From the NCBI GenBank assembly GCA_017463405.1, contig JAFTPJ010000147.1, positions 1-46,504 on the forward strand: 46,504 bases of DNA, in the 5' to 3' direction. Position numbers and translations under genes: made by a program. Shown one piece after another: positions 10,403-27,084 of the stretch. How positions within the stretch are numbered: the first letter of the stretch is position 1; each line of letters begins with the position of its first letter. This stretch comes from Clostridia bacterium (GTDB lineage Bacteria; Bacillota; Clostridia; Oscillospirales; CAG-272). Under the pieces are notes generated by a model, which made no database searches, had not been told where the DNA came from, and was given only the letters and a program-made list of their open reading frames with translations.

Positions 10403-11242
10403 ATGAAAAGAATTTTAGAAACAAAAAAACTGCAAGAATTTGAGGTCTATTTAAGAAACGAAGAAAGGAGTGCGGCAACGATTGAAAAGTATATGCATGA
10501 CATAAGATTTTTTGCATCATTTATCTATGATGCGGAAATAAGCAAACAAACTGTGCTTGATTACAAGAGTAAGCTTGGGGATATCTACGCTGTAGCAAGT
10601 GCCAATTCGATGATAGCAGCGCTGAATTGCTTTTTGCGCTTTTGCGGATGGCAAGATCTGTGTGTAAAGCAATTTAAAATGCAAAGAAACATTTACTGTT
10701 CCGAAGAAAAGGAACTGAGCCGTGCCGAATATATCCGTCTGCTTGAAGCGGCGAACGCAAAGCACAACGAACGCCTCAATCTTATTATCCAAACAATATG
10801 TGGAACAGGAATCCGTGTAAGTGAGCTTCAATATATAACAGTTGAAGCGGTACAGCACGGAGAGGCGATTGTAAACTGTAAGGGAAAGAATCGACGTATC
10901 TTTATCGTTCCCGAATTAAAGAAAAAGCTACTCCGCTATGCGAGGAAGCAGGGAATGTGTGCCGGAACGGTATTTGTTACACGGCGGGGAAAGCCCGTAA
11001 GCCGTCACAGCATTTGGAAGGATATGAAGGCGCTGTGCGAGCAGGCAAACGTGCCGTCAAGCAAGGTCTTTCCTCACAATCTCAGACACCTGTTTGCACG
11101 CAGTTTTTACAGTATTGAAAAGGATATTGCCAAGCTCGCTGATAGTCTTGGACATGCAAGCATCAATACAACTCGCATTTATATCGTTACGACCGGTGCG
11201 GAGCACAAGCGAAAAATGGAGCATATGAGGCTCATTATCTAA
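10403..11242 (+). CDS. Tyrosine recombinase (XerC/D-like), likely invertase of the adjacent switch
   Basis: Complete 279-residue site-specific recombinase that would cut and rejoin DNA through a 3'-phosphotyrosine. An N-terminal SAM-like core-binding domain spans about 1-95. The catalytic set is present: Arg138 (TGIRVSEL), a Lys near 160-162 (NCKGK), His225-x-x-Arg228 (PHNLRHLF), His251 (LGHAS) and nucleophile Tyr260 (TTRIYI). The start at 10403 is set by AAGGAG eight bases upstream; a 42-codon upstream extension is AT-rich noncoding sequence. The gene ends 41 bases before the first of two inverted repeats, the arrangement usual for a DNA invertase next to its target. It is not followed by phage or conjugative genes, which argues against an integrative-element integrase. 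Which sites it acts on is inferred. Confidence 0.93.
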   Translation: MKRILETKKLQEFEVYLRNEERSAATIEKYMHDIRFFASFIYDAEISKQTVLDYKSKLGDIYAVASANSMIAALNCFLRFCGWQDLCVKQFKMQRNIYCSEEKELSRAEYIRLLEAANAKHNERLNLIIQTICGTGIRVSELQYITVEAVQHGEAIVNCKGKNRRIFIVPELKKKLLRYARKQGMCAGTVFVTRRGKPVSRHSIWKDMKALCEQANVPSSKVFPHNLRHLFARSFYSIEKDIAKLADSLGHASINTTRIYIVTTGAEHKRKMEHMRLII

Positions 11243-11283
11243 AAAGAAAGAATCCCGATGCGAGCACATCGAGACCAAACACC

Positions 11284-11302
11284 ACATAACGGGAGTTATG
11301 TG
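11284..11302 (+). repeat. Left inverted repeat of the switch (IRL)
   Basis: ACATAACGGGAGTTATGTG, 19 bases, itself an interrupted palindrome with spacer GGGA. It lies 41 bases after the recombinase stop codon. Confidence 0.9.
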
Positions 11303-11339
11303 ATATTCGTATCAAACTACTTCTTCCGATACATATAAA

Positions 11340-11368
11340 ATTATATCACAAATAATAAAAAAAATCAA
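11340..11368 (-). promoter_or_regulatory. Promoter P2 inside the invertible segment, now facing left
   Basis: On the minus strand TTGATT (11363-11368), 17-base spacer, TATAAT (11340-11345) with extended -10 TG. At present it points out through IRL towards the 3' end of the recombinase gene. After inversion it would point to the SipW/TasA-like operon. Confidence 0.7.
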
Positions 11369-11405
11369 CACTTTCAGCAAAATTCGTAAAATATTATATA
11401 AAAAA

Positions 11406-11434
11406 TTGTATAGCAAAAATGCCTTTCGTATAAT
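11406..11434 (+). promoter_or_regulatory. Promoter P1 inside the invertible segment, now facing the operon
   Basis: TTGTAT (11406-11411), 17-base spacer, TATAAT (11429-11434). Its -10 lies inside the hairpin at 11421-11459, so a transcript starting near 11441 lacks the left arm and would not be terminated by it. Confidence 0.6.
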
Positions 11435-11464
11435 TTTTTCAAAAAATACGGCGAAAGGCTTTTT
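11421..11464. terminator. Hairpin terminator inside the invertible segment
   Basis: GCCTTTCG (11421-11428) pairs with CGAAAGGC (11452-11459), with an inner ATTTTTT/AAAAAAT stem, followed by TTTTT. The other strand also has a T run (rc of CAAAAATGCC), so it could block read-through in either orientation of the segment. Confidence 0.8.
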
Positions 11465-11523
11465 GTCGTGTTCTTTGTTGCGTTGCTTCAACTCATATTC
11501 GGAAGCAAATCTCACTTTTTAAC

Positions 11524-11542
11524 CACATAACTCCCGTTATGT
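11524..11542 (-). repeat. Right inverted repeat of the switch (IRR)
   Basis: Exact reverse complement of the left repeat over 19 bases; read on the plus strand its spacer is TCCC. Flanking bases outside the 19 differ from IRL, which marks the limits of the site. Confidence 0.9.
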
Positions 11543-11565
11543 CGCTTTTTGAATACGGTGAACGC

Positions 11566-11587
11566 TCCTGTAAACAGGAATTTTTTT
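11566..11587 (+). terminator. Weak intrinsic terminator or attenuator after IRR
   Basis: TCCTG (11566-11570) and CAGGA (11575-11579) around a 4-base loop, then A and seven T. The stem is short, so read-through is likely. Confidence 0.5.
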
Positions 11588-11734
11588 AGGAAACGGTGTA
11601 GTATTCACTAATCAAAGCTCTCAAAAGTATATGCAAAACCGCACAAAACCGTGAGAGCACACTTGCTTTCATAAAATCCGGCAACCTGCACGAATTTCAT
11701 TGGCAATAGATCGTAGGAGAAAGGAAGAATCGAG

Positions 11735-12018
11735 ATGAAACGCGAAGCGGAAATCAAAGAATGGCTGATAGGAAACGCCATACATCTGATTGCCGAGAGA
11801 GGATTTATTTTAAAGGAACTCCTCTTGAAACACAAAAACTTTTCGATGGGAGGGTAGAACTGCTTTCTCCGCTTTTCAAAAAAGAGGCGGATGTTCATGC
11901 TATTCTGCACAGCGTTTTTAACGCTTTATTCGATTTTGATATTCGGGTATATAACGGTGAGCTTGAGGATCATGCGAGCAACAGGCCTCATATCTTCAAA
12001 GTCCTGTATTGCAGATGA
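11735..12018 (+). pseudogene. Remnant of a TetR-like regulator
   Basis: From ATG 11735 the frame reads KREAEIKEWLIGNAIHLIAE then RGF, which looks like the first helix of a TetR-family DNA-binding domain. It then leaves the family pattern and stops at 11855-11857 after 40 codons. An overlapping frame (11761-12018) continues for 85 codons without a recognisable domain. The recognition helix and ligand domain are not present as one frame, so I read it as a truncated, frameshifted gene. A short real peptide cannot be excluded. Confidence 0.45.
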
Positions 12019-12091
12019 TGTATTTCAAAGAATTCACATAAGCCATTATTTGGTGCAAGGGAAAATAATTTTTAAGAAAAGGAGGACAATG

Positions 12092-12589
12092 ATGTCAAGA
12101 AATAAGCTTATGCGAATTGTGCTGGTTGTAGGAAGCACATTGATCCTGGTCGGCGTATCGCTTATGACATGGATGATCTTTGCTGCGGATGACCCAAACG
12201 TGATTGTGGTTCAGCTGGAGAACGGTAAAACCGAGGCGATCGAATTTGAAAATTTAAGTCTCGTGCCCGGTGAATCCTGTGAGTACACTGTTACGTTGAA
12301 AAGCGCTAAAGAAAAGCAATATGATTTAAGCCTTGATTTTATTGAAACCGAAGAAAAGACCTTGAAGCATTTTGCACGTGTGCAAATCGTTGCAAATGGA
12401 GATGTCGTGTGTGACGAGCTGCTCGCAACGGTTTTTGAAGATGAGGATATTATCTTACCCATTGATTTTACCGAGGATAATAAGAGCATAGAGCTGAAAA
12501 TTGTGTATTATCTTCCTATTGAAATTGGTAACGAAGCGAAAAACGCTGAAGCTGTTTTTGAACTGCTTCTTACGGCAAACAACGCGTGA
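12092..12589 (+). CDS. Small membrane-anchored/secreted protein of the SipW locus, 165 aa
   Basis: First gene of the operon. An N-terminal hydrophobic stretch (IVLVVGSTLILVGVSLMTWM, about residues 8-28) is followed by about 135 residues rich in beta-type patterns (IEFENLSLVPGESCEYTVTL, IELKIVYYLPIEIGNEA). The C-terminal half resembles the beta-sandwich of TasA/camelysin-like proteins (a GESxEYTVTLK strand and a late IGNEA turn also seen in neighbours), but the SipW-type AxFTD signature is replaced by WMIFAAD. It could be a non-cleaved anchor or minor subunit. Two ATGs overlap the ribosome site; 12092 gives a six-base spacing from AAGGAGG. Function unknown. Confidence 0.7.
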   Translation: MSRNKLMRIVLVVGSTLILVGVSLMTWMIFAADDPNVIVVQLENGKTEAIEFENLSLVPGESCEYTVTLKSAKEKQYDLSLDFIETEEKTLKHFARVQIVANGDVVCDELLATVFEDEDIILPIDFTEDNKSIELKIVYYLPIEIGNEAKNAEAVFELLLTANNA

Positions 12590-12597
12590 GGTGACGT

Positions 12598-13401
12598 ATG
12601 GACAAGGCAAGAGTAAAAAGAATCGGCAATATCGTACTGAACGTACTGTTGTACATATTCCTCGCAATCTGTATTTTTTCGGTATTCCTTACCATATTCT
12701 CCAAAAAGGACTCGGACGGAGCTGCTGAAATTTTCGGGTATCAGATGCGTGTAGTCACTTCCGATTCTATGGCAGCGTGTGAGCATACCGATGTGTCCGG
12801 CTTTGAGATCAAGGATATTCCGGTTCGTTCCATGGTGTTCGTCAAGGTAATGCCCGACGATCCTGCCGAGGCAGACGCGTTTTACCGCAATCTTGAATTA
12901 GGTGATGTGCTGACTTTCCGCTATGTTTACACAACACAAGTAACAATTACCCACCGTATCACCGCGATTACGGAAAAGGATACGGGCGGATTTATCATTG
13001 AGCTGGCGGGAGATAACAAGAACTCCGAGGACGGTCAGCTTATTCAGGTGATTGATACATCTATTCCGAATAACACCAACTACGTAATCGGTAAGGTTAC
13101 TGGGCAGGCTTATTTGCTTGGTGTTATCATGAGTTTTCTTATGACACCCGTTGGTATTGTTCTTGCCATTATCGTACCGTGTTTTATTATTATTTTGCTC
13201 GAAGTTGTGAAAATTGTAAAAATACTGACGGCAGACAAAAAGAAACGCGAGCAAGAGGAAAAAGAGAAAAAAGAGAATGAGCTGGAAGAACTTCGCCGTA
13301 AGCTTGCAGAACTGGAAAAGGGAAATGAAGATCATTCTGTCCCTGAAACGGAACCACAAATAGAGTGCAATGAAGAAAATGAGGAGGCTGATGCAGAATG
13401 A
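12598..13401 (+). CDS. SipW-type signal peptidase I (S26B), copy 1, 267 aa
   Basis: Membrane signal peptidase of the archaeal/ER type, which uses a Ser-His pair instead of Ser-Lys. The catalytic Ser57 is in VVTSDSM and His119 in TITHRITAI; an Asp-containing box follows (LAGDNKNSEDG, about 137-146). One N-terminal membrane helix (about 12-34) and one C-terminal helix (about 175-205) are followed by a charged Lys/Glu coiled-coil-like tail of about 60 residues, unusual for SipW. Such enzymes mature TasA-like fibre proteins, which are encoded next door. It starts eight bases after the previous stop, with GAGGTGA as a ribosome site, and overlaps the next gene by four bases. Confidence 0.9.
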   Translation: MDKARVKRIGNIVLNVLLYIFLAICIFSVFLTIFSKKDSDGAAEIFGYQMRVVTSDSMAACEHTDVSGFEIKDIPVRSMVFVKVMPDDPAEADAFYRNLELGDVLTFRYVYTTQVTITHRITAITEKDTGGFIIELAGDNKNSEDGQLIQVIDTSIPNNTNYVIGKVTGQAYLLGVIMSFLMTPVGIVLAIIVPCFIIILLEVVKIVKILTADKKKREQEEKEKKENELEELRRKLAELEKGNEDHSVPETEPQIECNEENEEADAE

Positions 13402-13640
13402 GTGAATTTGTAATTGGATTTATGATTGTTGCGACGTTTTTTGCTTTGTTAACAATCGGATACATTGTCATTGACATTGTTGTTGAATCACGGCAACGGC
13501 ATAAGAAATTGCCCGAAATGAAAACGGAAACGCCCCCCTCCTCGGCATCGCACGTTTCTCCCAAACCGACCAAAGCTCCGGATCCTGTAAAACCGAAGAA
13601 GATTGACCGCATTAACGCTACGATTTTCATCAAGGATTGA
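13398..13640 (+). CDS. Small single-pass membrane protein, 80 aa
   Basis: Starts in the ATGA overlap with the signal peptidase gene, so translation is coupled. One helix (IGFMIVATFFALLTIGYIVI, about residues 5-25) is followed by a basic, Pro/Lys-rich cytoplasmic-looking tail with KPTKAPDPVKPKK. No family recognised. The coupling suggests a partner or regulator of the first peptidase. Confidence 0.75.
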   Translation: MSEFVIGFMIVATFFALLTIGYIVIDIVVESRQRHKKLPEMKTETPPSSASHVSPKPTKAPDPVKPKKIDRINATIFIKD

Positions 13641-13695
13641 GTCACTGTTTTCAGTGTTTCAATATATAAAAATCTGTGAGAAAGGAGGGGTGACT

Positions 13696-14418
13696 ATGAA
13701 AAGTACGAACAGAAAAAGGACTTTGCTTGTGTCAAGTGCAGTGATCATGCTGTGTATGACGATTATTGTGGGTATGACATGGGCTCTGTTTACTGATACG
13801 CAAACTGTACATAACCATTTGCAAGCAGGAGATTTGAAAATTACACTCAAACGCACAGAGCTTACCAAAACAACGTTGAATACGGATGGCTATCTTGTTG
13901 AGTTGCCTACAGACATTACGGAAATCAATTTCTCCAATCCTACGGATCAAAATGTGTTTGGTCTGACAACCAATGATGACGGTGAAGTTACAGAGCTGAT
14001 CGTTCCGGGATCGCATTTTGTTGCGAAAATGAAAATCGAAAACAATAGCGACGTTGCTTTCGGATATTGGGTAAAAATTGATTGCAAGGACGATGGCGTT
14101 GAAAGAACGCTCGCCGAGCAATTGAAGATTACCGTTTACACCGATAAAAACGGCGACGGAACGATTGACACCAAAACAGAAAGCGACGATAGTACTGTTG
14201 CTACCGGTCTTGAGGTTGGTGGTGATAAGAATTACATCGGAACGTTGAAAGTAGGTCAAGCGGAGAGCTTTATTGTATCGGTAGAGTTTATCGATACGGG
14301 CTACGGATACGACGAATATGGTGTGCTTACCTCAACAAACAATGCGGCTAAAACGCAGAGCGTAGACTTTGATCTGGTCGTATATTCCGTTCAGCTAACC
14401 GCGGCTACCGCACCGTAA
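13696..14418 (+). CDS. TasA/camelysin-like secreted protein with SipW-type signal, 240 aa
   Basis: Predicted exported subunit. The N-terminus has basic residues (STNRKRTLL), a hydrophobic core (about 9-28) and the SipW-cognate motif MTWALFTDTQ followed by AGDLKITL. The rest is beta-rich, with VPGSHFVAKMKIENNSDVAF typical of camelysin/TasA-like domains, and DKNGDGTIDTKTESDD (about 155-170), a likely calcium loop. Processing by one of the two adjacent SipW-type peptidases is inferred from the motif and the locus. The start at 13696 follows AAAGGAGGGG; an earlier in-frame start would overlap the previous gene. Probably a fibre or matrix subunit. Confidence 0.82.
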   Translation: MKSTNRKRTLLVSSAVIMLCMTIIVGMTWALFTDTQTVHNHLQAGDLKITLKRTELTKTTLNTDGYLVELPTDITEINFSNPTDQNVFGLTTNDDGEVTELIVPGSHFVAKMKIENNSDVAFGYWVKIDCKDDGVERTLAEQLKITVYTDKNGDGTIDTKTESDDSTVATGLEVGGDKNYIGTLKVGQAESFIVSVEFIDTGYGYDEYGVLTSTNNAAKTQSVDFDLVVYSVQLTAATAP

Positions 14419-14440
14419 TACCCGGCACAAGTAAAAAACG

Positions 14441-14492
14441 AACGCAGAACTTGCTGAAGCTTGAGTTCGCGTTTCGACCGAAATCAAGCTTC
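14441..14492 (+). promoter_or_regulatory. Two mutually exclusive hairpins in the leader of the next gene
   Basis: AACGCAGAACT (14441-14451) can pair with AGTTCGCGTT (14464-14473, one bulge). Alternatively GAAGCTTGA (14456-14464) pairs perfectly with TCAAGCTTC (14484-14492). The two stems share the middle segment, so they compete. A short A-rich stretch then leads to the ribosome site at about 14506. Confidence 0.45.
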
Positions 14493-14521
14493 GAAAAAAT
14501 ACAATAAGGAGAAAACAAAAA

Positions 14522-15655
14522 ATGAAAAAGAAAGTTTTGCTGTCCTCGATTGCGACAATCGCTCTTTGTCTTTGTCTGATCGCAGGATCAACTTTCGCGC
14601 TGTTTACCGACAGCACGAATTTCAACATTGCCGTTACAGCCGGTGACGTTGAAATTTATGCAAAAGCTGATATCAAAGCAATTTGGTCTGCAAGCGGTGA
14701 GAACGTTGACGAATCGCTCGTAGATGCGTTTCTCGTTGACGAGAACAATCATAGCTACAACCACGTTGATCGCACTGCTGATGGGACTTTCATTAACGGT
14801 GGCGTTGCAGAGCTTACCGGTGAGAATCAACAGAATCTTACCATAAGCCGACTCACCCCCGGAGACAGAGTAGACGTTGATATCGTAGTGGAAAACAAGA
14901 GCGATGTTGCGATGGTATATCGTTACAAACTTATTTCCAACAATACCAATCTTGCTACCGGTATGGTGGTAACGATTGACGTTGGCGAAGAGACCGAGCA
15001 GAGCTACGAGGCTCTTGCACAGTGGACGTCCGAGTGGTATCCCGTAATCGCTGCTCCCAACGGAGAGCCTGATCCGATTCCCGTAAAGACCATCTCTGTT
15101 GAACTTCCCGTATACGCAGGCAACGAGTACCAGAGCGAGGCTGATAATGTTCAGAGTGTTGAGTACACAATCATCGTTGAAGCGGTTCAGGGTAATGCGG
15201 TTACCGATGATGAGTCTGCGGTTGTCGTGTACCAGACTGAACCCGTTGACGCGGCTAACTTGGTTCAAGCAACCTACGAAGATGAAACCGGTGTTTTTGA
15301 TGATCCGACGTTAACTGATGTTGTGGTTGTTAAGGATTTGTATTTGACGGGGAAGGGTGCCGTATCTGTTGACAGAACGTATAACACGGTATTCCTACAA
15401 AACGTAACCGCCGATTTAGGAGATGCTCCTGTCGTTACAAGCGATTTCGCACAAACATACGTAATTTCAGATTGTAATTTCAAGATCCCTGTTGATGAGA
15501 ATGGCGCGGTTACGAATTCCATCATCGACGCTCCTGATAATCTTGGCGGCACGATTATTCTCATAAACGTGTATGTAAACGATACGCTTGTTACGGAAGA
15601 AAATGATACAGAACTTTTCGCCGGATGGGCAGATGGTTCAATTTGGGTGAATTAA
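14522..15655 (+). CDS. TasA/camelysin-like secreted protein with beta-rich C-terminal domain, 377 aa
   Basis: SipW-type signal: a hydrophobic stretch (about 8-25) then STFALFTDST and AGDVEIYA. The TasA-like core (to about 235) includes ISRLTPGDRVDVDIVVENKS and a final strand ending YTIIVEAVQGNA. A C-terminal part of about 140 residues (LVQATYEDETGVFDDP onwards, VVKDLYLTGKGAVSVDRTY) looks like a short beta-helix or pectin-lyase-like domain, as in the larger 17.2 kb gene. Ribosome site AAGGAG ten bases upstream. Likely a subunit with a binding or adhesive tail; the ligand is unknown. Confidence 0.8.
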   Translation: MKKKVLLSSIATIALCLCLIAGSTFALFTDSTNFNIAVTAGDVEIYAKADIKAIWSASGENVDESLVDAFLVDENNHSYNHVDRTADGTFINGGVAELTGENQQNLTISRLTPGDRVDVDIVVENKSDVAMVYRYKLISNNTNLATGMVVTIDVGEETEQSYEALAQWTSEWYPVIAAPNGEPDPIPVKTISVELPVYAGNEYQSEADNVQSVEYTIIVEAVQGNAVTDDESAVVVYQTEPVDAANLVQATYEDETGVFDDPTLTDVVVVKDLYLTGKGAVSVDRTYNTVFLQNVTADLGDAPVVTSDFAQTYVISDCNFKIPVDENGAVTNSIIDAPDNLGGTIILINVYVNDTLVTEENDTELFAGWADGSIWVN

Positions 15656-15716
15656 TTCGAATAGTCTATTGAATCAGGCTTTATGAAGCCGCTAAAATAA
15701 CGGCAAGGAGGTAATG

Positions 15717-16310
15717 ATGTTCCGTTATAAATCACATAAACAAGCGTTCATTATGACGGTATTGGTCATCCTGCTTTGCCTCGTATGTCTCACGGGAGCG
15801 ACGCTCGCTCTCTTCACCAGTGACCCGAACGACGGTACGATCGGTATCATCACGACGTCGGGAGATGTCGAGGTCGATATTGTCGATACGCAAGGTGTCA
15901 CGTTGCAAAACAGAGCCCTGGCTTTTCTGACTACTTCCGGCAGCATGACCGACAGCGAAAACGTACTCTTTGAGCCCGGCGCGACTTTTCGTACTCAGGG
16001 CTTCCAGATAAAGAATACGGGAGATATTCCCGTGAATTTCAGCCTTTCGGTCAGCAAGGACGATAAGATCAATATGGAAGAGTTCGATAAAGCCTTTGAA
16101 CTCTGGATTGTAAAGGAAGGCGACGATTTCCGGGGCGCGAAGCGAATCACCGAGTTTAAAGTGAACGGTTTGGCGGTGGGAGAAAGTAGCGAAACTTACT
16201 ACCTATTTATCAAAATGAAGGAATCCGTGGGCAACGAATTCCAAGGCAAAACCTATACGGGTATAGGCGTAACCGTATATGCGGTGCAAGGTAACGCACA
16301 ACTGAACTAA
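15717..16310 (+). CDS. TasA/camelysin-like secreted protein with SipW-type signal, 197 aa
   Basis: Hydrophobic N-terminus (about 12-30) followed by ATLALFTSDP and TSGDVEVDI, a SipW-cognate pattern. The mature part (about 165 residues) has FEPGATFRTQGFQIKNTGDI, the strand that in this family caps the jelly roll, and ends GIGVTVYAVQGNAQ. Two ATGs overlap AAGGAGG; 15717 gives the better spacing of five bases. It is followed closely by the second signal peptidase gene (14 bases), so the two are probably made together as substrate and enzyme. Confidence 0.82.
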   Translation: MFRYKSHKQAFIMTVLVILLCLVCLTGATLALFTSDPNDGTIGIITTSGDVEVDIVDTQGVTLQNRALAFLTTSGSMTDSENVLFEPGATFRTQGFQIKNTGDIPVNFSLSVSKDDKINMEEFDKAFELWIVKEGDDFRGAKRITEFKVNGLAVGESSETYYLFIKMKESVGNEFQGKTYTGIGVTVYAVQGNAQLN

Positions 16311-16324
16311 GGAGCGATTCTTGA

Positions 16325-17164
16325 ATGAATACAACAGCGAAAAAGATACTGAATATTGCATTGAAGGTCGTAACTTGGCTTCTTGTTGCCTTTACCGTCT
16401 TTATGATGATATTCACCATTGTCACGGTAACAACCGTTGACAGAAACGACCGCAGCATCTTCGGTGTAAAGTTTTACATCGTCCAGACTGATTCCATGAG
16501 CCTCTCGGAGAATAACAAGGACATGGACGTGCATTTCAATGCGGGAGATATTGTCATTATCAAAAATGTGGAGGATCCCCGAGCACTACAAGCCGGTGAT
16601 ATCATCGCCTTTATGTCTACCAACAGCGTAAGCTACGGAGAGACCGTCACGCATATGATCCGCGAGGTCAAGAAAACCGAAGATGGAAAACTCCTTGGCT
16701 ACGTGACCTACGGTACGAACACGGGAACCGATGATGAAGCTCTGGTAGAGCCCGAATACGTTTTGGGTGCCTACTCGGGCAAGCTCCCCGGCGTTGGTAA
16801 TTTTTTCGCATTTGTGAAGTCCACGCCCGGCTATATCGTTTGTATTCTCGTACCATTCCTGCTTCTGATTCTCTATAACGGCGTGAACGTTATCCGCCTG
16901 TTCCGCAAGTACCGACGCGAGCAGATGGAGGCAATGCAAGCCGAGAGGGATCAGATCGATGCAGAACGCGCTGAAACCCAGCGTATGATGCAAGAGCTGT
17001 TGGCTCTCAAGGCACAGCTCGACAAAAAAGAAGGTGGAGAGGGAACATCTCCCGCCGAGCCTGCGTCCGAGGTAAGTTCTGCGGAGGAAGTAACAACCGA
17101 AGAAACAGTTGAAACGGAATCGGAAGATGCTGCTCCTGCGGAAACAACCGACGAAAATCTATAA
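16325..17164 (+). CDS. SipW-type signal peptidase I (S26B), copy 2, 279 aa
   Basis: Second archaeal/ER-type signal peptidase in the same operon. The catalytic Ser57 is in IVQTDSMSL and His110 in ETVTHMIREV; the later Gly/Asp box is degenerate (YGTNTGTDDEA). Membrane helices lie at about 10-36 and 180-203. A long C-terminal tail (about 75 residues) begins as an amphipathic coiled coil rich in Arg, Gln and Glu (EQMEAMQAERDQIDAERAET) and ends in a Glu/Thr-rich stretch. It differs clearly from copy 1, so the pair is not a recent duplication. The two may process different substrate sets. Confidence 0.9.
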   Translation: MNTTAKKILNIALKVVTWLLVAFTVFMMIFTIVTVTTVDRNDRSIFGVKFYIVQTDSMSLSENNKDMDVHFNAGDIVIIKNVEDPRALQAGDIIAFMSTNSVSYGETVTHMIREVKKTEDGKLLGYVTYGTNTGTDDEALVEPEYVLGAYSGKLPGVGNFFAFVKSTPGYIVCILVPFLLLILYNGVNVIRLFRKYRREQMEAMQAERDQIDAERAETQRMMQELLALKAQLDKKEGGEGTSPAEPASEVSSAEEVTTEETVETESEDAAPAETTDENL

Positions 17165-17233
17165 GGTGTATTGAGGAAGGTCCTCTTTACATAGTTAGTC
17201 TAACAAAAATAAGCCATAAGGAGGTTAAACAAA

Positions 17234-20110
17234 ATGACTAACATAAAATCAACAAAGCACGCACTGTTGTCAAGCGTTCTGGCGTTGTTCCTCTGCTTCG
17301 CCATGCTGCTTGGGACGACATTTGCGTGGTTCACCGACTCGGTAACGAGTGCGAACAACATTATCAAGACGGGTAATCTTGATATCGAGCTTGAATATGC
17401 CAAGGTCGTTGGCGGTAGCATTACTGATTGGGCAACCGTACAGGGCGCAAACGAAATCTTTGATCCCAACGCTCTTTGGGAGCCCGGCAGAGTAGAGGTT
17501 GTTTACCTGAAGGTTTCTAACCTTGGTACTCTTGCTCTCAAATATCAGCTTGGTGTTAACGTTGTAAACGAAAGCGTCGGCAAGAATGGTGCAGGAGAGG
17601 ACATAAAGCTCTCTGATCACCTTGTATTCAAGGTGGTTGAAATGCCCGATACACTTACTACTTACACCGACCGTGAGGCAGTAGCGACTGCCGCAGGCAC
17701 GGAAAAGGGCTTGAAGGACTATAACAGTGATACCACCGCCCTTGAGGTTGGGGGTACTGACTACGTTGCTCTCATCGTGTATATGCCTGAATCTGTTGGC
17801 AACGAGGCAAACTACCGTGGTGACGATATTCCCACTATTACACTCGGTGTTAACCTCTATGCAACTCAGCAAATGTCTGAGAAAGATAGCTTTGGCGACA
17901 ACTACGACGAGTATGCAGGACTTCCTTGGGATGGATCCGTGGGTGATGTACCCGCTGCAGTAGAGAATGTTATCACCATTACCACCGCCGCTGAGCTGGC
18001 AGCATTTGCAGCTGATGTCAATAGCGGTAACAGCTACTCGGGCAAGACTGTGAAGCTGGCTGCTGATCTGGATCTTGCGGGCAAGGCATGGACTTCCATC
18101 GGTGACTGCGAGAGCGGTAAATACTTCCAGGGTACGTTCGACGGTCAGGGATATACCATATCCAACCTGTACGTTGACTATTCCACAGATGCATCTGAAC
18201 ATGCCACTGCCGGGTTGTTTGGCTGGGTGGACGCTGCTATGGCTACCGTTAAAAATGTAAATGTGGATGGCGCAACCGTAAAGGGAAGTCACTGGGTCGG
18301 CGTTATTGCCGGTTACTTCACCGGTACCATCGAGAATTGCTCTGTCAACAATGCCACCGTCATCGGCTACAACGTCAATGATGATGCCAACGGCGATAAG
18401 GTCGGCGGTATTGTCGGTTGCCTGAATGAGCACAGCTACCTCAACGGCAATACTGTATCGAACTCCGCAATTACCGGTAACCGCGATATCGGCGGTATTG
18501 CAGGCTCTGTTGCTGCTTCTACCTACGAGATGAAGAACAACAAGGTTTCGGACACCACTATCACTTACAGTACTTCCAAGGATTATGCTTCCGCAGGTGA
18601 GATTGTCAGCGGTCGTACCGGCTATGTAGCTGATGATACTAACGTTGCTACCAATGTGTCCATTATCAAGTCTGTTGTTGCTTCCACTGCTGATGAACTG
18701 GCAGCTGCTTTGAAGAGCACCGACAAGTATATTAACGTCACCCTTGCTAATGACATTGATGTTCCCATCACCTCTCTCGGTCAGCAGACCGGTGGCAGCG
18801 GCGAGTATAAGCTTGCTGGCGAGGAGACTGAAACCATCACTCTGGACCTGAATGGTCAGAAGCTGAACATTACCACTACATACTGGTCCAATATTGGAGC
18901 CAAGAACGATGATGCCGTGTTTACTATTAAGAACGGCACCATGACTAGCTCTCAGGCAACCGGCACGTGGAACTCCTATGACCTTACGTTCTCCAATTGC
19001 AACTATGTGATTGAAGATGTAGTCTTTGAAAAGGCGATTGCTTTTGCTAATACCGGCAAGTCTGCCAAGCTCAGTAATGTCACTGTGAACGAGACTCACG
19101 ATTACTACGCTATCTGGATCTGTGCTGCAGGTATGGATGTTGAAATCGATGGTTTGACCGTCAACAGTGCGGGACGCGGTATTAAGATCGATGAGGAGTA
19201 TGTAGGCTCTCCTGCAAAGGTCACCTTGAAAGTTGCCAATGCGGATTTCAATACCGCAAAGAAGGCAGCTATCATGGTCAAGTCCACTGCCGGTGCTGAC
19301 ATCACTTTGAGCAATGTTAACATTGCTGATACCATTGATACTGTACATGCAGTGTGGGTAGATGAGGATTCTGCTGCATACGTAGATCGGGTCACTGTCA
19401 CCGGTGGCGAGAAGATTTATGAGGGTAATGTTGTTTCTACTGCTACCGAACTGGCTGAAGCTGTAACGGCAGGAAAGACAGAGATTTGGCTGCTTCCCGG
19501 TGAGTACGATGTTGCCGGCTGCGGCGGCAAGACCCTGACCATCAGCGGTACCAAGGATGCTGTTATTAAGCTTTACAATGACGGCGAAGATGGTTGCGAT
19601 TATGCCTTCGGTTCTGCCGGCACCGGTGTTGGAAGCTACACCTTTAACGGTATTACCATCGATACCACCTCGAATACCGGAAACTACAAGGGCTTCGCTT
19701 ACATGAAGGGAACCTTCAACGACTGTAACTTTGTGGGTTCGTACAGCTTAAATAATGCGAACGATTTCGTGTTTAACCGTTGTACTTTTGACTTCAAGAA
19801 CGGATATTTCTGGACTTGGGCAGCAAATAGCGTTACCTTTGACGGCTGTACCTTTAACGGCAACAGTAAGACCATCCTTGCTCACGGTGGAGCGAGCACT
19901 GTGATCAATATCAACAACTGCGCGTTCGTGGCAACCGAAAAGGGCTACACAGGCTCCGGTGACAACACCGCGGTCGTTGAAATAGATCCTACCGGTGCTA
20001 ACACCTATACCATCAACTTTACTGGCGAAAACACCATCACCGACAGCTATGCCGGCTGGACTCGCGTAAAGGACGATTCTACCGGTCACACCATTACCGG
20101 GGTGAACTAA
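17234..20110 (+). CDS. Large GLUG/beta-helix surface protein with SipW-type signal, 958 aa
   Basis: SipW-cognate N-terminus: a hydrophobic core (about 10-28), then TTFAWFTDSV and TGNLDIELEY. Residues about 45-225 form a TasA/camelysin-like domain ending GVNLYATQQ. After a linker, about 250-470 has GLUG-type repeats (HATAGLFGWV, SHWVGVIAGYFTGTIENCSV, KVGGIVGCLN, DIGGIAGSV). The rest (about 490-955) is a right-handed beta-helix-like region with turns such as FSNCNYVIEDVVF, FNDCNFVGSY and FNGCTFNGNS patterns. No wall-sorting motif or C-terminal membrane segment is seen, so attachment may be through the TasA-like domain joining a fibre. Likely an adhesin or matrix-decorating protein. Ribosome site AAGGAGG eight bases or so upstream. 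Confidence 0.85.
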   Translation: MTNIKSTKHALLSSVLALFLCFAMLLGTTFAWFTDSVTSANNIIKTGNLDIELEYAKVVGGSITDWATVQGANEIFDPNALWEPGRVEVVYLKVSNLGTLALKYQLGVNVVNESVGKNGAGEDIKLSDHLVFKVVEMPDTLTTYTDREAVATAAGTEKGLKDYNSDTTALEVGGTDYVALIVYMPESVGNEANYRGDDIPTITLGVNLYATQQMSEKDSFGDNYDEYAGLPWDGSVGDVPAAVENVITITTAAELAAFAADVNSGNSYSGKTVKLAADLDLAGKAWTSIGDCESGKYFQGTFDGQGYTISNLYVDYSTDASEHATAGLFGWVDAAMATVKNVNVDGATVKGSHWVGVIAGYFTGTIENCSVNNATVIGYNVNDDANGDKVGGIVGCLNEHSYLNGNTVSNSAITGNRDIGGIAGSVAASTYEMKNNKVSDTTITYSTSKDYASAGEIVSGRTGYVADDTNVATNVSIIKSVVASTADELAAALKSTDKYINVTLANDIDVPITSLGQQTGGSGEYKLAGEETETITLDLNGQKLNITTTYWSNIGAKNDDAVFTIKNGTMTSSQATGTWNSYDLTFSNCNYVIEDVVFEKAIAFANTGKSAKLSNVTVNETHDYYAIWICAAGMDVEIDGLTVNSAGRGIKIDEEYVGSPAKVTLKVANADFNTAKKAAIMVKSTAGADITLSNVNIADTIDTVHAVWVDEDSAAYVDRVTVTGGEKIYEGNVVSTATELAEAVTAGKTEIWLLPGEYDVAGCGGKTLTISGTKDAVIKLYNDGEDGCDYAFGSAGTGVGSYTFNGITIDTTSNTGNYKGFAYMKGTFNDCNFVGSYSLNNANDFVFNRCTFDFKNGYFWTWAANSVTFDGCTFNGNSKTILAHGGASTVININNCAFVATEKGYTGSGDNTAVVEIDPTGANTYTINFTGENTITDSYAGWTRVKDDSTGHTITGVN

Positions 20111-20129
20111 ATTTCAATAATAAGTCCGA

Positions 20130-20195
20130 CCCAACTCCCCTCGGGGAGTTGGGCGGCAATCAAAGGGCATAAACCTATTTGTGCCTTTTGATTGC
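20130..20195 (+). promoter_or_regulatory. Two tandem strong hairpins within the operon
   Basis: Hairpin 1: CCCAACTCCC (20130-20139) with GGGAGTTGGG (20144-20153). Hairpin 2: GCAATCAAA plus GGGCA (20156-20169) with GTGCC plus TTTTGATTGC (20181-20195). Neither is followed by a T run, so they look like RNA processing or stabilising structures more than a terminator. They lie between the large beta-helix gene and the last TasA-like gene. Confidence 0.6.
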
Positions 20196-20241
20196 TGAAA
20201 ATATAACCGTTAGATAGAAATACCCGAGAGGAGGAAAACTC

Positions 20242-20835
20242 TTGAAAAACTTTTTTGATTGCAAGGACGGGAAAATAACCGAAAAGGCATTCTCGCAAAG
20301 TCTGATCATATCGGTGGTCAGTATTTTGTTATGCCTTGTCGCGCTTTGCTCGATGACCTACGCTTGGTTTACAAGCGAAACGTCGAGTAGCAGCAACACG
20401 CTGATGTCGGGATCCTTTGACTTGACGATAAATGTGTCGAAGGTCGAGAATGACGTTGCAATTGCGAGCGATATTCAAGTGGAGCCCGATATCGCTAATG
20501 TGGGTAAATATAAGTGTACACTTGAGCAGGGAACTTATGAGATTTCCTTGACACTGACAGATAAATCTAACGTTAAAGGTCACTGTGTAGTAAAGATCGG
20601 AAGCAGTGAAGAACAACACACCGCTGCAATCATTGGAGAGCAGACAGCCAATGTTGATGAAGTCGAAATGAAAACAGATCCGTTCAAGTTTAAGATTACA
20701 GTAACGGAAACTACGGAAGTTACCCTTGAGCCTCGTTGGGGCGTTGTTGTAGATCCTGATATTCAGTATGGGAGTACATATCCTGTGCCAGAAGTAGTGG
20801 ACGAAGGCGAAATAACGCAAGATCCGTCAGCATGA
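20242..20835 (+). CDS. TasA/camelysin-like secreted protein, TTG start, 197 aa
   Basis: Last intact member of the cluster. The start is TTG at 20242, seven bases after AGAGGAGG; no in-frame ATG fits. The N-terminus has a 20-residue cytoplasmic part, a hydrophobic core (about 20-41) and the SipW-type motif MTYAWFTSET with SGSFDLTINV. The mature part is short (about 150 residues), beta-rich, and ends in an acidic tail EVVDEGEITQDPSA. A different N-terminus and the hairpins before it suggest separately tuned expression. Its stop overlaps an ATG of a short downstream frame. Confidence 0.78.
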   Translation: MKNFFDCKDGKITEKAFSQSLIISVVSILLCLVALCSMTYAWFTSETSSSSNTLMSGSFDLTINVSKVENDVAIASDIQVEPDIANVGKYKCTLEQGTYEISLTLTDKSNVKGHCVVKIGSSEEQHTAAIIGEQTANVDEVEMKTDPFKFKITVTETTEVTLEPRWGVVVDPDIQYGSTYPVPEVVDEGEITQDPSA

Positions 20836-22896: not shown

Positions 22897-23406
22897 TCAT
22901 CCTCGTGCTTCGGTGACGTAGATACGGTTGGTGCTGACATGGAAGGTGGCGGCGAGGAGAGAAATCAGCTCACAGCGCACGATCTCGTTCCCTCCGCCGT
23001 GGCAAACGATGCCGATGCCTGCAATGTCGGGGGCGGCACGGGTCAGATAGAGTGCTTTGGCGGAGGAGCCGCTACCAAGAATCACGTATTCCTCGTTGCC
23101 CTCGCGAAATTCGGTAGCGTAGATCGATTCAAAGGTACCGGAGAGTGTGACCGCTACCGTAACTTGACTCACACCATTGACCGATTCGCAAAGTGCTTGT
23201 ACCCGATCCTCGAGATAGCGCTGGTAGATGACCAGTTCATCCGTTTCTGTCGTATAGGTGACGTTTTCGGTCGGGGTGTCGACTGCCGTTGCTGACGAGC
23301 CGATCAGGATCAGTATGATACCTGCTATGGCGGCGATTAGGAGCAGGCACATTTTTCCGTTGAACGTTTTTTGGCCGTTGGCTCCGATTTTGAATAATGA
23401 GATCAT
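22897..23406 (-). CDS. spoIIIAG: Stage III sporulation protein AG
   Basis: Mother-cell membrane protein of the SpoIIIA-SpoIIQ channel (feeding tube), with a ring-forming extracellular domain. There is one N-terminal helix (MCLLLIAAIAGIILILIGSS, about 19-38), then the soluble domain with YQRYLEDRVQALCESVNGVS, VTVAVTLSG and the conserved end IAGIGIVCHGGGNEIV...NRIYVTEAR. Length 169 is slightly short for the family. It is the last gene of the operon here; the spoIIIAH gene that usually follows is absent. It begins 14 bases after spoIIIAF. Confidence 0.9.
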   Translation of the reverse strand: MISLFKIGANGQKTFNGKMCLLLIAAIAGIILILIGSSATAVDTPTENVTYTTETDELVIYQRYLEDRVQALCESVNGVSQVTVAVTLSGTFESIYATEFREGNEEYVILGSGSSAKALYLTRAAPDIAGIGIVCHGGGNEIVRCELISLLAATFHVSTNRIYVTEARG

Positions 23407-23420
23407 CTTTATTCCTTTCT

Positions 23421-23915
23421 TTATTCAATAGCAGTGACACATTCGCATCCTAAAAGCTCGGTAACGAATCGCTCAATTGGCTCGGGATCACTCCAGATCG
23501 CGCTCTCTGAGAGGATGACTGTCACCCGCGTGGGGGAGAGTGTTCCGTCGGCATCGGTCCAACGGACCGAACAGCGCACGTTCCCGCTTTCGATTGAAAA
23601 ATTCTTTTCCAATGCTTGGGTCAGCAGCTGTACCAGATATGCCTTGGAGGAGGCGCTCATCGCGTTCTCCATTTCCTTTTGATAGTCTTGTTTTTCTATC
23701 TCTCCGATCTCGGGAGACTCCGATTTACCGTTCGCAAAATCCGAGAGTATGCCGATTGTTTCTCGGAGCGGTGCAATCAGAACGCAAAGCAGAAACAAGG
23801 AAACCAGAAATCGCATATGCTTGGCGATTCCGCCGCGCTCGCCGTCAGGGGAAAGAATCCCGATCAGCGCAGCGACCATTGCGGCGGCAATCAATGAAAT
23901 CAGATATGTACTCAT
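23421..23915 (-). CDS. spoIIIAF: Stage III sporulation protein AF
   Basis: Two N-terminal helices (YLISLIAAAMVAALIGILSP and MRFLVSLFLLCVLIAPL) and a ring-type extracellular domain ending in VTVILSESAIWSDPEPIERF and CECVTAIE fit SpoIIIAF. The start at 23915 is preferred because GGGAGG lies four bases upstream; an in-frame ATG at 23927 has no site. It begins just inside the end of spoIIIAE, so translation is coupled. Confidence 0.88.
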   Translation of the reverse strand: MSTYLISLIAAAMVAALIGILSPDGERGGIAKHMRFLVSLFLLCVLIAPLRETIGILSDFANGKSESPEIGEIEKQDYQKEMENAMSASSKAYLVQLLTQALEKNFSIESGNVRCSVRWTDADGTLSPTRVTVILSESAIWSDPEPIERFVTELLGCECVTAIE

Positions 23916-23926
23916 GGCGCCTCCCA

Positions 23927-25087
23927 TCAGCCTAGCGCCGACGCACAGTGCGTCAGCAGTGTAAAGGACAGGAACAGCACGGAGGAGCAGATGCAGACCG
24001 CGGCGATCAGATACCCGTGCACCGATGCAAACTCCTCCAGTAGCCGCTTTTCGCTGTCACAGCCTAGCAGATCGGCAAGCGATGCGCACAGTTGCCAGCA
24101 CAGACGGACGAGCAACAGCTCGATCAGTGTGGGAAGGAGCAGGAGCAAAAGTAGCAGAAGTGCGCAAATTCCAACCGTGCCGCGCAGATAGCCGACGCCC
24201 GCGCTGACGGTGCGCAACAGCTCCGAGATCGATCCGCCGACTACCGGGATCAGATTCCCTGCGGCGAATTTTGCACTTTTCATGGCAAGTGTGTCACTCC
24301 GCGCTCCCAGTACGGTTTGTGCCGAGAGCATAGTCAATAGGAGCATCATCAAAAAGGTCAGCGCGGTTGTATAGTGTTTTTTGAGTGTTCCCGCCAGTGT
24401 TCCGATGCGCAGGGAAGGATCCAGTGCGGCGACTGCGGCGAACGCAAGGCAGATGCCGCAGAAGGGGACGATTGTAGTGCCGACGACGCCCTCCAGCAGG
24501 CTCATGAATACCGTAAGCCCTGCGGATGAGGCGACAGCGGCAGAAACGTTTCCGCCCATGGCGTAAAGCCCCCCGAGGAGCGGAATCGAGGCGGAAGTCA
24601 TTTTTCCGAGATTTGAGAAATATTCTACGGTGCTTTGGATACTGTCGTAGCCTCGTGTTAGCAAAAAGCTCAAAATAACCAGCGTTGTGCAAAAGGAAAA
24701 GGCGCGTGCAATGCTCTGTTGTGCAAAGGAGCTCTGCACCGTGCGGCAAACCGCTGCCAAAAGCAGCATCCCGGCGATCGATGCCAAAAGCCTGACGCAA
24801 TCTCCGAGCTTTACGCCGACCAAGGACAGAAGGGTTTGCAGAAGGTAGGAAAAATCGCTCATTTCATTGACCGATGCGCCGACCGTTTCGGTGTCCTTTG
24901 CAAAAAGTCCCTCGGGTAACAGCTCGGTCAGTTCCTCCGGTAAGATATCGAGCAGCTCGTGATATTCGTCCGGCAGTATGTCGGCTGTGGCTTCCTCCGC
25001 CGAGCATGGCAGGGCGAGGAGGAAAATGAGCAGGAGAAAAAAGAGCGGGAACAGGAAGCCTTTTTTTCGCAGAAGACGTTGGTTCAT
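23927..25087 (-). CDS. spoIIIAE: Stage III sporulation protein AE
   Basis: Polytopic membrane component of the SpoIIIA complex. A cleavable-looking signal (GFLFPLFFLLLIFLLALPCS) is followed by an acidic segment with DILPEELTELLPEGLF and about seven or eight helices (LLASIAGMLLLAAVC, VILSFLLTRGYD, MMLLLTMLSAQT, ALLLLLLLLLPTLIELLL and others). The family motif VGGSISELLRTVSAGVGYL is present near 290. Length 386 is normal. The gene overlaps its neighbours' signals within the spoIIIA operon. Confidence 0.93.
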   Translation of the reverse strand: MNQRLLRKKGFLFPLFFLLLIFLLALPCSAEEATADILPDEYHELLDILPEELTELLPEGLFAKDTETVGASVNEMSDFSYLLQTLLSLVGVKLGDCVRLLASIAGMLLLAAVCRTVQSSFAQQSIARAFSFCTTLVILSFLLTRGYDSIQSTVEYFSNLGKMTSASIPLLGGLYAMGGNVSAAVASSAGLTVFMSLLEGVVGTTIVPFCGICLAFAAVAALDPSLRIGTLAGTLKKHYTTALTFLMMLLLTMLSAQTVLGARSDTLAMKSAKFAAGNLIPVVGGSISELLRTVSAGVGYLRGTVGICALLLLLLLLLPTLIELLLVRLCWQLCASLADLLGCDSEKRLLEEFASVHGYLIAAVCICSSVLFLSFTLLTHCASALG

Positions 25088-25091
25088 GCTG

Positions 25092-25484
25092 TCAACCTCC
25101 TGTGGAGAGCAGCTCTTTTGAGAGCTCTAAAATCTCGTTCATCAGTGGGATACACAGCAATAACAGCTCGATCTTTCCCGTTAACTCCACACCGTCGGCT
25201 ATCCCGCTTTCTCCACATTCCCGACAGATCTGCGAGGCAATCTGGGTCAGCAGTGCGATCCCGAGTCCTCGGAACAGGAGTGAGGCGTGCTCGGAGATGC
25301 CCTCCGTATTCGTCAATTCCCGCAGATAATCGAATATCGGGGTTGCTGTTGTGAGTAGAACGGCGACAAACAGGAGCAGTAGCCCCACGCGGATCAGCGG
25401 AAGAAAATCCGATTTCCATTGCTTGATGACCATCGTCATGGTAATGCCCATGAGCGCGAGCATGCAGATTTTGATCAGCGTCAT
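25092..25484 (-). CDS. spoIIIAD: Stage III sporulation protein AD
   Basis: Small membrane protein of 130 residues with helices at about 5-20, 31-50 and 85-110. The family features GITMTMVIKQWKSDFLPLIR and VELTGKIELLLLCIPLMNEI are present. Three bases separate it from spoIIIAC, and four from spoIIIAE. Confidence 0.93.
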   Translation of the reverse strand: MTLIKICMLALMGITMTMVIKQWKSDFLPLIRVGLLLLFVAVLLTTATPIFDYLRELTNTEGISEHASLLFRGLGIALLTQIASQICRECGESGIADGVELTGKIELLLLCIPLMNEILELSKELLSTGG

Positions 25485-25487
25485 GGA

Positions 25488-25682
25488 TTACATTCCGAAG
25501 ACCGACGTGATCAGATCGAAAAGATCACGGATCTGTGTGACTAAAAGCATCAGGGCAACCAGGATTCCTGCGATAGTGACGAACATTGCCTGCTCGTCGC
25601 GTCCACTTTTACTGAGTATTTGTGATGCAACGGCGACGAGAATCCCGATGCCTGCAATTTTAATGATTAATGAAATATCCAT
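25488..25682 (-). CDS. spoIIIAC: Stage III sporulation protein AC
   Basis: 64-residue two-helix membrane protein (MDISLIIKIAGIGILVAVAS, then QILSKSGRDEQAMFVTIAGI, LVTQIRDLFDLITSVFGM), the usual SpoIIIAC length. An in-frame extension upstream lies in spoIIIAB sequence and is not used; CGGAGAGAC stands before the chosen ATG. Confidence 0.93.
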   Translation of the reverse strand: MDISLIIKIAGIGILVAVASQILSKSGRDEQAMFVTIAGILVALMLLVTQIRDLFDLITSVFGM

Positions 25683-25708
25683 GTTTTTGTCTCTCCGTAA
25701 ATCTGTTT

Positions 25709-26185
25709 TTACCACAAAAGTACTGCCGCGCCGAGTGCCACGCATAGGCTGATTGTAACCGAAAGCCGAAGCCGCATTGGCAACTCTGAGGCGCTTTTTT
25801 CTCGCAGATTGCGCAACGCGGTAATATAATAATCGCATCTGCGTACCTGCTCCTCGCGATAAGAGTTTCCGATTTCACGGACAAAGCTTTCCAGAAGACT
25901 TTTTGCATCCCCGTCTAAATACACCGCCGACGCACGCAGAATCGCATGCAGGTCGGTCGATTCGTTTTGCGGAATGCAGAACTCCGGAAGCGTTTGCCGA
26001 CCCTCGGCAAGAATCTCGCCCAGTGGCATCAGGTAGCAGTCGATTTTGGAGCGGATGTAAAAGATCAGATCGATCCACCCGTCGATAACGCGGATCCTTT
26101 TCTTTTCGTATTGCGTGGCTCCACGGGCACAAATTGCACCTACGCCAAGAATCAGGAGCGCACCAAGCAGCTTGAGTGCGATCAT
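25709..26185 (-). CDS. spoIIIAB: Stage III sporulation protein AB
   Basis: 158-residue protein with N-terminal helix (IALKLLGALLILGVGAICAR) and C-terminal helix (LSVTISLCVALGAAVLLW) flanking a helical cytoplasmic domain similar to GspF-type secretion proteins, as known for SpoIIIAB. ATG 26185 overlaps the spoIIIAA stop (ATGA); GGAAGG lies upstream. Confidence 0.92.
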   Translation of the reverse strand: MIALKLLGALLILGVGAICARGATQYEKKRIRVIDGWIDLIFYIRSKIDCYLMPLGEILAEGRQTLPEFCIPQNESTDLHAILRASAVYLDGDAKSLLESFVREIGNSYREEQVRRCDYYITALRNLREKSASELPMRLRLSVTISLCVALGAAVLLW

Positions 26186-27084
26186 ATATACGCATCCTTC
26201 CAATCTGTGAATTGATAGGAAAAGCCATTGCTGCAGCGGCGGATGCCCGTGTAGAGCTCAAAGACGTGTGCCCGATGCAGCAACGATATCGCCGGGCGGC
26301 GGAGTAGCTCGCCGATATCCCGCGCATGCGCAGAGGCGATCAGGGGGACGCCGCAATTGGAGGCAGACAGGATGGCACGGGCATCCTCCGTGCTTCCGAT
26401 CTCGTCGCAAATCACGATCTCGGCACCAAGGCTTCGGACGGCGATCCCGATTCCGATATCACGCGGATATCCGACAAGAATATCTAAATTCAGATCCGCA
26501 CCGTCCAACGTGAAATTCAATTCACCGCGTGTATCCACAGCGACTGTTCTGTATCCGCAGGCGGGTGAGGACAGCTCGGCGGCAAGGGCGCGTAACAGCG
26601 TGGTTTTTCCGATGCCGGGTGGGGCATAGATCAGTATACCGGGCGGACGACTGTACATACGCAAGCGCTCACACAGCTGTGTGAGCGAAACGCGGGGCGC
26701 ATGCGGAATCCGAACAATCAGTCCCGTGATATCGGTGACACCGATAATCTGCTCCTTTTCGATTGCCGCACTTCCGCAAACACCAACGCGGATACCGCCC
26801 TCCATGGTCAGATACCCCTGATTGATGGTCTGGCTGTAGGCGTACAGAGAATCGCGGCACATTTTTTTGAGAATCTCGGCGATTTCATCCTTGGACAGCG
26901 TGACCGACGTCGGGTAGCTCTTGCCTGTTGCCGTCACAAAGGTGCGTCGGTTGCTGTGCAGCCGTATTTCCTCCGCAATGGGAGCACCGCAGCGCATGAT
27001 GGCGTCTGTCAGATACGGCGGCATACACGAGGTCAGTACGCGCGGCAGCAGGATCGGCGGATGTGTTGTCCGTACGGATTGCAT
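26182..27084 (-). CDS. spoIIIAA: Stage III sporulation protein AA (ATPase)
   Basis: Cytoplasmic secretion-type ATPase that powers the SpoIIIA channel in the mother cell. Walker A is APPGIGKTTLLRALA (about residue 155) and Walker B is AEIVICDEIGS. The domain between residues 60 and 130 carries KMCRDSLYAYSQTINQGYLT and GGIRVGVCG, typical of the family. AAGGAGGG lies seven bases before ATG 27084. First gene of the operon; a sporulation-type -10 (CATATAGTA) lies upstream. Confidence 0.95.
   Translation of the reverse strand: MQSVRTTHPPILLPRVLTSCMPPYLTDAIMRCGAPIAEEIRLHSNRRTFVTATGKSYPTSVTLSKDEIAEILKKMCRDSLYAYSQTINQGYLTMEGGIRVGVCGSAAIEKEQIIGVTDITGLIVRIPHAPRVSLTQLCERLRMYSRPPGILIYAPPGIGKTTLLRALAAELSSPACGYRTVAVDTRGELNFTLDGADLNLDILVGYPRDIGIGIAVRSLGAEIVICDEIGSTEDARAILSASNCGVPLIASAHARDIGELLRRPAISLLHRAHVFELYTGIRRCSNGFSYQFTDWKDAYI

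Follow-up and report, generated by a model that had tools for sequence, protein, structure and literature searches.

The locus considered here, in a window (the whole stretch of DNA analysed) of 46,504 nucleotides from a Clostridia bacterium, places a short segment bounded by inverted repeats between a tyrosine recombinase gene and an operon with SipW- and TasA-like genes, and this raises the question whether the segment is a switch by which the recombinase controls the operon. Our answer is that a promoter-inversion switch, in which the recombinase flips the 221-bp segment and thereby sets the operon ON or OFF, has a probability of about 90%. An earlier note on this DNA had proposed a recombinase-linked, phase-variable promoter, and this is also the best reading of the present results, because relatives carry the segment both ways round and the repeat pair goes with the recombinase family. 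The features concerned are listed in Table 1.

Table 1. Positions of the recombinase, the segment with its repeats, and the operon in the window
Feature	Position	Strand	Basis or remark
Tyrosine recombinase, presumed invertase, 279 aa + stop	10403..11242	+	Intact ORF; Pfam Phage_integrase
Predicted terminator for leftward transcripts, between recombinase and left repeat	11251..11276	-	11-bp stem, T-rich tail, -13.1 kcal/mol, z -4.17
Left inverted repeat / recombination site, ACATAACGGGAGTTATGTG, 19 bp	11284..11302		4-bp centre GGGA at 11291-11294
Invertible segment, 221 bp	11303..11523		Alignment to relatives, inverted or as-is
Promoter-like site TTGATT-17-TATAAT, TG extended -10	11340..11368	-	Sigma-A-type consensus; faces recombinase, away from operon
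Predicted terminator hairpin, can form on both strands	11413..11466		Plus -20.8 kcal/mol, z -5.40; minus -16.9, z -3.91
Right inverted repeat / recombination site, exact complement of left	11524..11542		Centre TCCC = GGGA inverted
Broken TetR-like regulator	11735..12012	+	N-terminal 24 aa 11735-11806, C-terminal 71 aa 11803-12012, different frames, middle missing; tblastn with intact relatives' gene
Operon gene 1, 165 aa, no confident family	12092..12589	+	Conserved in 4 relatives
SipW-like signal peptidase 1	12598..13401	+	NF046067 3.2e-18, 66 bits, below cut-off 190
Small operon protein, 80 aa, no confident family	13398..13640	+	Profile searches
TasA/camelysin-like protein	13696..14418	+	PF12389 27.2 bits, cut-off 22.5; TIGR04088 18.5, cut-off 19
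TasA/camelysin-like protein, SipW-type signal	14522..15655	+	PF12389 27.6; TIGR04088 23.8, cut-off 19
Probable SipW-type substrate, signal motif TLALFTS	15714..16310	+	Own motif pattern; no family match
SipW-like signal peptidase 2	16325..17164	+	TIGR02228 55.8 bits, cut-off 51.85; NF046067 81.3, below 190
Large surface protein, 958 aa, SipW-type signal	17234..20110	+	TIGR04088 22.3, cut-off 19
Last operon protein, weak SipW-type signal	20242..20835	+	TIGR04088 15.8, below cut-off 19

The recombinase family and its paired sites

The recombinase gene is complete, as the earlier note had claimed, and its product matches Phage_integrase with an E value of 1.3e-24. The XerA/XerC/XerD-like models of NCBIfam match it as well, every one of them below cut-off, and among solved structures it matches the XerA-type 4a8e (4.3e-19). 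Residues R138, K162, H225, R228, H251, and Y260, which we take to be the catalytic residues, are invariant in an alignment of 12 members of the recombinase family. The left repeat starts 41 bp past the 3' end of this gene (11242 to 11284), which is the distance reported before, and the two repeats were likewise found to be exact over 19 bp, each of them a 7-4-7 palindrome of the form ACATAAC-NNNN-GTTATGT. By the definition given in PMC11892184, an inverton is a segment flanked by inverted repeats of 10–40 nt, and the exact 19-bp repeats of this locus fall within that range.

Homologs of the recombinase at E <= 1e-60 were detected in 9 of 35 genomes of the genus and in 110 of 394 genomes drawn from the order, and at E <= 1e-70 in 9 of 398 genomes drawn from the phylum, the source genome being included in each of these counts. 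The family set used below is comprised of 117 loci from 94 genomes or records, whose recombinases are 43–87% identical (the window and a few end pieces apart); 80 regions were taken among the order-wide matches listed. The counts leave out L060 (no match), L061 (an end piece of 90 aa), L069 (on the same contig as L034), L072 (39%, partial, at a contig end) and L020-L032 (22–28% identity). Ten of the 11 named loci are from assemblies called "Clostridia bacterium", from sheep and deer gut.

An inverted pair of sites was found in 77 of the 89 loci that have at least 450 bp of downstream sequence, whereas the same search gave one pair in 445 dinucleotide shuffles and none in 22 upstream regions or in 82 regions lying 2 kb further downstream; hence, the pair is not due to chance. 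In these 77 loci the repeats are 206–366 bp apart from start to start (median 257; 240 in the window) and the left repeat lies at a median of 32 bp past the recombinase match. The pair was also present in all 11 family members from the viral collection having enough DNA (two of them identical; 34 of 80 viral-collection loci were examined) and in 4/4 loci from the plasmid collection. It was sought and not found downstream of L020-L032, the relatives of 22–28% identity, and in 18 relatives of 36–39% identity (0/18). Judged from sequence, the site pair goes with the family to which this recombinase belongs. The 12 loci of the 89 in which the pair is absent include some that retain one site, one with a direct pair (L143), and L043, L134, and L137, in which no site was seen.

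Some further occurrences of the module may be recorded. On plasmid records of 335–504 kb it is present in Monoglobus, Pusillibacter, and Subdoligranulum (L262-L265), where the Pusillibacter copy precedes a gene with an S-layer domain, and it is also found on contigs filed as viral (L182-L197). The genome G042 has at least eight family loci (L050-L056, L059), most of them cut at contig ends just past the recombinase, and five of the readable ones share the centre TGGT or TGAT.

The exact 7-4-7 core is present at two places in the window and nowhere else in the source assembly (2.45 Mb in 171 contigs, 82.6% complete), in which the reversed pattern, used as a control, has no match. Relaxed to ACATAAY-N4-RTTATGT, the pattern has five occurrences, viz. 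two pairs and one lone site, and the two pairs adjoin the two family recombinases of this genome (that of the window and a second one at C17:4493-5305). The second of these loci (G000:C17:4493-5592, L048) has the look of another switch of the same family, with the centre TGCG and in the ON orientation. The lone site is at G000:C69:26710-26727 (L268, L271), a contig on which no family recombinase is reported.

Although the arms of the sites are near-constant, their 4-bp centers are of 50 kinds among the 77 loci, and the center is the same in both arms in 76 of them. None of the 50 kinds is palindromic, an absence whose chance expectation, calculated by hand as (240/256)^50, is ~0.04 and which is too weak to count as evidence of avoidance. 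As pair-finding favors matching centers, single sites were additionally scanned for with no demand for pairing; at least two sites were then present in 76 of the 89 loci, and the outermost centers were equal in inverted order in 73 of these, equal in direct order in one and neither in two. This loose scan found more than two sites in 14/89 loci. Differences in the arms track differences in the recombinases (Mantel r 0.36, with 0/2000 permutations as high), a test that, like the tree test below, rests on related sequences.

A tyrosine recombinase needs a crossover region that is homologous and asymmetric. Centers that are asymmetric and matched within a locus fit this need, whereas an operator needs no such match. 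This bears upon the possibility that the recombinase acts elsewhere and that the palindromes either bind a protein, as operators do, or are mobile-element relics, in favor of which one may cite the operator-like palindromy of each site, the unpaired copy at C69:26710 and the presence of family members on large plasmids and viral-collection contigs. However, an operator requires neither asymmetric centers that agree between arms nor their variation from locus to locus, the segments are found in both orientations, and four of the genome's five sites belong to the pairs that adjoin its two family recombinases; we regard operators or relics as the least probable of the explanations weighed here. 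Under the promoter-inversion reading, the recombinase, presumably the enzyme responsible, would bind both palindromic sites, recombine them at the 4-bp center and flip the 221-bp segment.

A broader proposition, for and against which we find the case evenly balanced, is that the shared site ACATAAY-N4-RTTATGT serves one large Clostridia family of recombinase-plus-switch modules, in which the asymmetric center would be a private address, identical at both ends of one switch but not from one switch to the next, which would let many of them share one recombinase type and not cross-recombine. The module would then precede varied surface and other operons, here one for a TasA-like fiber matrix, and the biofilm matrix would become a heritable ON/OFF coin toss. 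Differing centers within one genome are to be read with the proviso that random pairs would usually differ too. If flipping is active, the signature of recombinase, 41 bp, and palindromic pair ~240–260 bp apart with an asymmetric center would locate such switches, their ON/OFF state could be read straight from assemblies, and the address idea would become directly testable. As a separate observation, extra tandem copies of the recombination site, ~30 bp apart, are present in L062 (10880-10961), L063 (2309-2361), L067 (10891-10943) and L064 (11141-11193), and the extra left copies in L062, L063, and L067 bear a cgcc/cgct flank like that on the outside of the right repeat.

Candidate promoter and terminators of the segment

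The segment was earlier said to carry outward promoters. One strong site was indeed found, on the minus strand at 11368-11340 and pointing away from the operon, but promoters facing outward on both sides of the window segment were rejected, since the rightward candidate (TTGTAT-17-TATAAT, of lower score, 11406-11434) sits inside the terminator hairpin 11413-11466. The promoter-like sites in the window region are not in excess of shuffles (2 found vs. a shuffle mean of 5.9), and their weight therefore comes from conservation and not from number: the -10 element lies at 0.84 +/- 0.04 of the segment in all 74 loci for which a call was made. By its match to the consensus, this site is placed, as in an inverton, within the segment, where it would drive the neighboring gene in one orientation only. 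A search for promoter-like sites in 11543-12091 gave none, the next one being within operon gene 1. As the sole strong promoter-like site faces left and none is present between the right repeat and the operon, the window copy reads as the OFF arrangement.

In this predicted OFF state the operon would be left without a promoter, the segment hairpin would block read-through from the recombinase gene, and the putative terminator between the recombinase and the left repeat would stop the leftward transcript. The stem of the latter is 91.8% paired in 10 relatives, with covariation not above shuffles. In the ON state the promoter would face right and drive the SipW/TasA operon together with the TetR-like gene, if the latter is intact; a weak terminator-like hairpin at 11566-11579, between the right repeat and the operon, could damp this transcription. 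The outcome would be a mixed population in which some cells have TasA-like fibers.

In 56 of the 77 loci the segment contains a predicted terminator on at least one strand, in comparison to 14 of 231 shuffles; the remaining 21/77 segments have none by the rule used. This frequency would suit a mechanism in which inversion takes place but the switch proper is the hairpin, as proposed for Clostridioides difficile cwpV, with a promoter located outside the segment. However, the hairpin of the window can form on both strands, so flipping would leave termination unchanged, and a strong promoter is within the segment, its place being constant in 74/74 called loci, while that of cwpV lies outside (PMC2784873). 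Switching by the hairpin is thus, in our view, very unlikely. One locus of the family, L159, has long arms (score 68) which place a strong promoter at both segment ends, where it would drive the neighbor either way.

Orientation of the segment among relatives

The window, L033, L034, L064, and L065 share one orientation of the segment, and L062, L063, L067, L068, and L102 have the opposite one. The flanks are unchanged in L063, L064, L065, L067, and L068, with the recombinase upstream and the TetR-like gene and operon downstream; the contig of L062 stops 95 bp past the right repeat and its downstream genes are outside it. Between L062 and L064 the segments are 86% identical when one is inverted vs. 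49–50% as they stand (shuffled control 48%), and an independent pair, L141/L145, behaves similarly (80 inverted vs. 45 as-is). Alignment and promoter call are consistent with one another in each of the 35 alignable pairs (>=65%), of which 19 align as they stand and have the same state and 16 align inverted and have the opposite state. Both orientations between the same flanks were thus found across related species, and the comparison of related genomes for both states, which the earlier note had suggested, does yield inverted relatives. The scan of genome contigs gave no second genome of the source species, and in IMG/VR the loci L187 and L189 are identical and of the same orientation, while L184 and L185 stop at the recombinase.

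Over the 77 loci, the promoter calls are 21 ON, 53 OFF and three unclear. On a tree of the recombinases, quickly built and with many weak inner branches, the number of state changes was 18 vs. 18.6 +/- 1.5 with shuffled labels, indicating that orientation has no phylogenetic signal and, at these distances, is not passed on by descent. A contig end falls within 400 bp of the recombinase on its 3' side in 28/117 loci as against 8/117 on the 5' side (p 0.0004), and omission of genome G042 leaves 22 vs. 7 of 109 (p 0.005). This excess is suggestive of mixed populations in which assemblers meet both orientations, and repeated copies of the module could also cause it.

It is conceivable that the segment flipped only in the course of evolution and that the switch of the source strain is locked OFF or decaying. 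The TetR-like gene, which is broken in the window, is the first gene downstream and is intact in L063, L064, L065, L067, and L068 (~205 aa, with a TetR_N match just under the cut-off), and the pair is lost or changed in 12 of the 89 family loci. The break could be real decay or an assembly error, however, and the source strain retains repeats exact over 19 bp, an intact recombinase with all six expected residues, and the promoter and hairpin in their usual places. We therefore consider a locked or decaying switch improbable; under the favored reading, flipping would be ongoing in this strain.

The downstream operon and comparable systems

After the right repeat, nine consecutive plus-strand ORFs extend from 12092 to 20835. 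The earlier description of these as nine secretion genes in one direction holds as regards their number and direction, and two of them are SipW-like peptidases; "secretion" is a loose term, some of the nine having no family and several looking like secreted substrates. Both peptidases match NF046067 (E 3e-18 and 6e-23) below its cut-off, TIGR02228 is above cut-off for one, and among the TasA/camelysin-family substrates two proteins exceed the cut-off of PF12389 and two that of TIGR04088. In the SipW/TasA fiber operon of Bacillus, a SipW peptidase is combined with TasA-type substrates and the matrix is under regulators. The present operon resembles it in its SipW-like peptidases and TasA/camelysin-like proteins with SipW-type signals, but differs in having two peptidases and several divergent substrates, for which most models remain below strict cut-offs. 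If flipping is active, a gut commensal would set by DNA inversion which of its cells make TasA-like fibers.

Switches of comparable construction have been described. Inverton group 139, of whose 33 invertons 32 are from Clostridia, is tightly linked to tyrosine-type invertase group 35; reads in both orientations are reported for it, and in culture its orientation is reported to shift between mucin carriers and supernatant (PMC11892184). Two examples given there have repeats 241 and 231 bp apart from start to start, close to the 240 bp found here, and the hosts are Clostridia with a tyrosine-type recombinase within 5 kb, which in the window is 41 bp away. Going by host, recombinase type and spacing, and not by repeat motif, the recombinase family studied here is probably that of group 139, in which case the mechanism is already known. 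The main text of PMC11892184 has no occurrence of TasA or "signal peptid*", and no literature linking SipW or TasA to promoter inversion was found in a search whose coverage of subscription papers and preprints was thin. The locus is thus a switch of known kind with an unusual target, a SipW/TasA-type fiber operon.

Two other systems may be compared with this locus on the basis of PMC2784873. The E. coli fim switch likewise has its promoter inside the invertible segment, an adjoining tyrosine recombinase gene and a surface-fiber product, although fim has two recombinases where here there is one, and the sites and fibers differ. The cwpV/RecV system shares with the present locus the Clostridia host, a recombinase of the XerC/D family, a segment of ~200 bp, a surface protein and terminators; in contrast to the window, where the strong site is inside the segment, none is present in 11543-12091 and the recombinase is adjacent, the cwpV promoter lies outside its segment, with recV not close by.

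In 71 of 76 loci of the family, the ORF of 100 aa or longer that comes first after the right repeat is co-directional, and SipW-like genes are among the first seven downstream ORFs in 12 of 77. A Pfam survey of 73 of the 74 first downstream genes (L053 was left out and long proteins were cut to 1100 aa) gave as commonest matches List_Bact repeats, band-7, zinc ribbons and TetR (7 each), followed by BspA-type LRR (5). Beyond the operon, sporulation stage III genes are present on the minus strand of the window at 22897-26203, where Spore_III_AE is at 23927-25087 and the others were recognized by eye.
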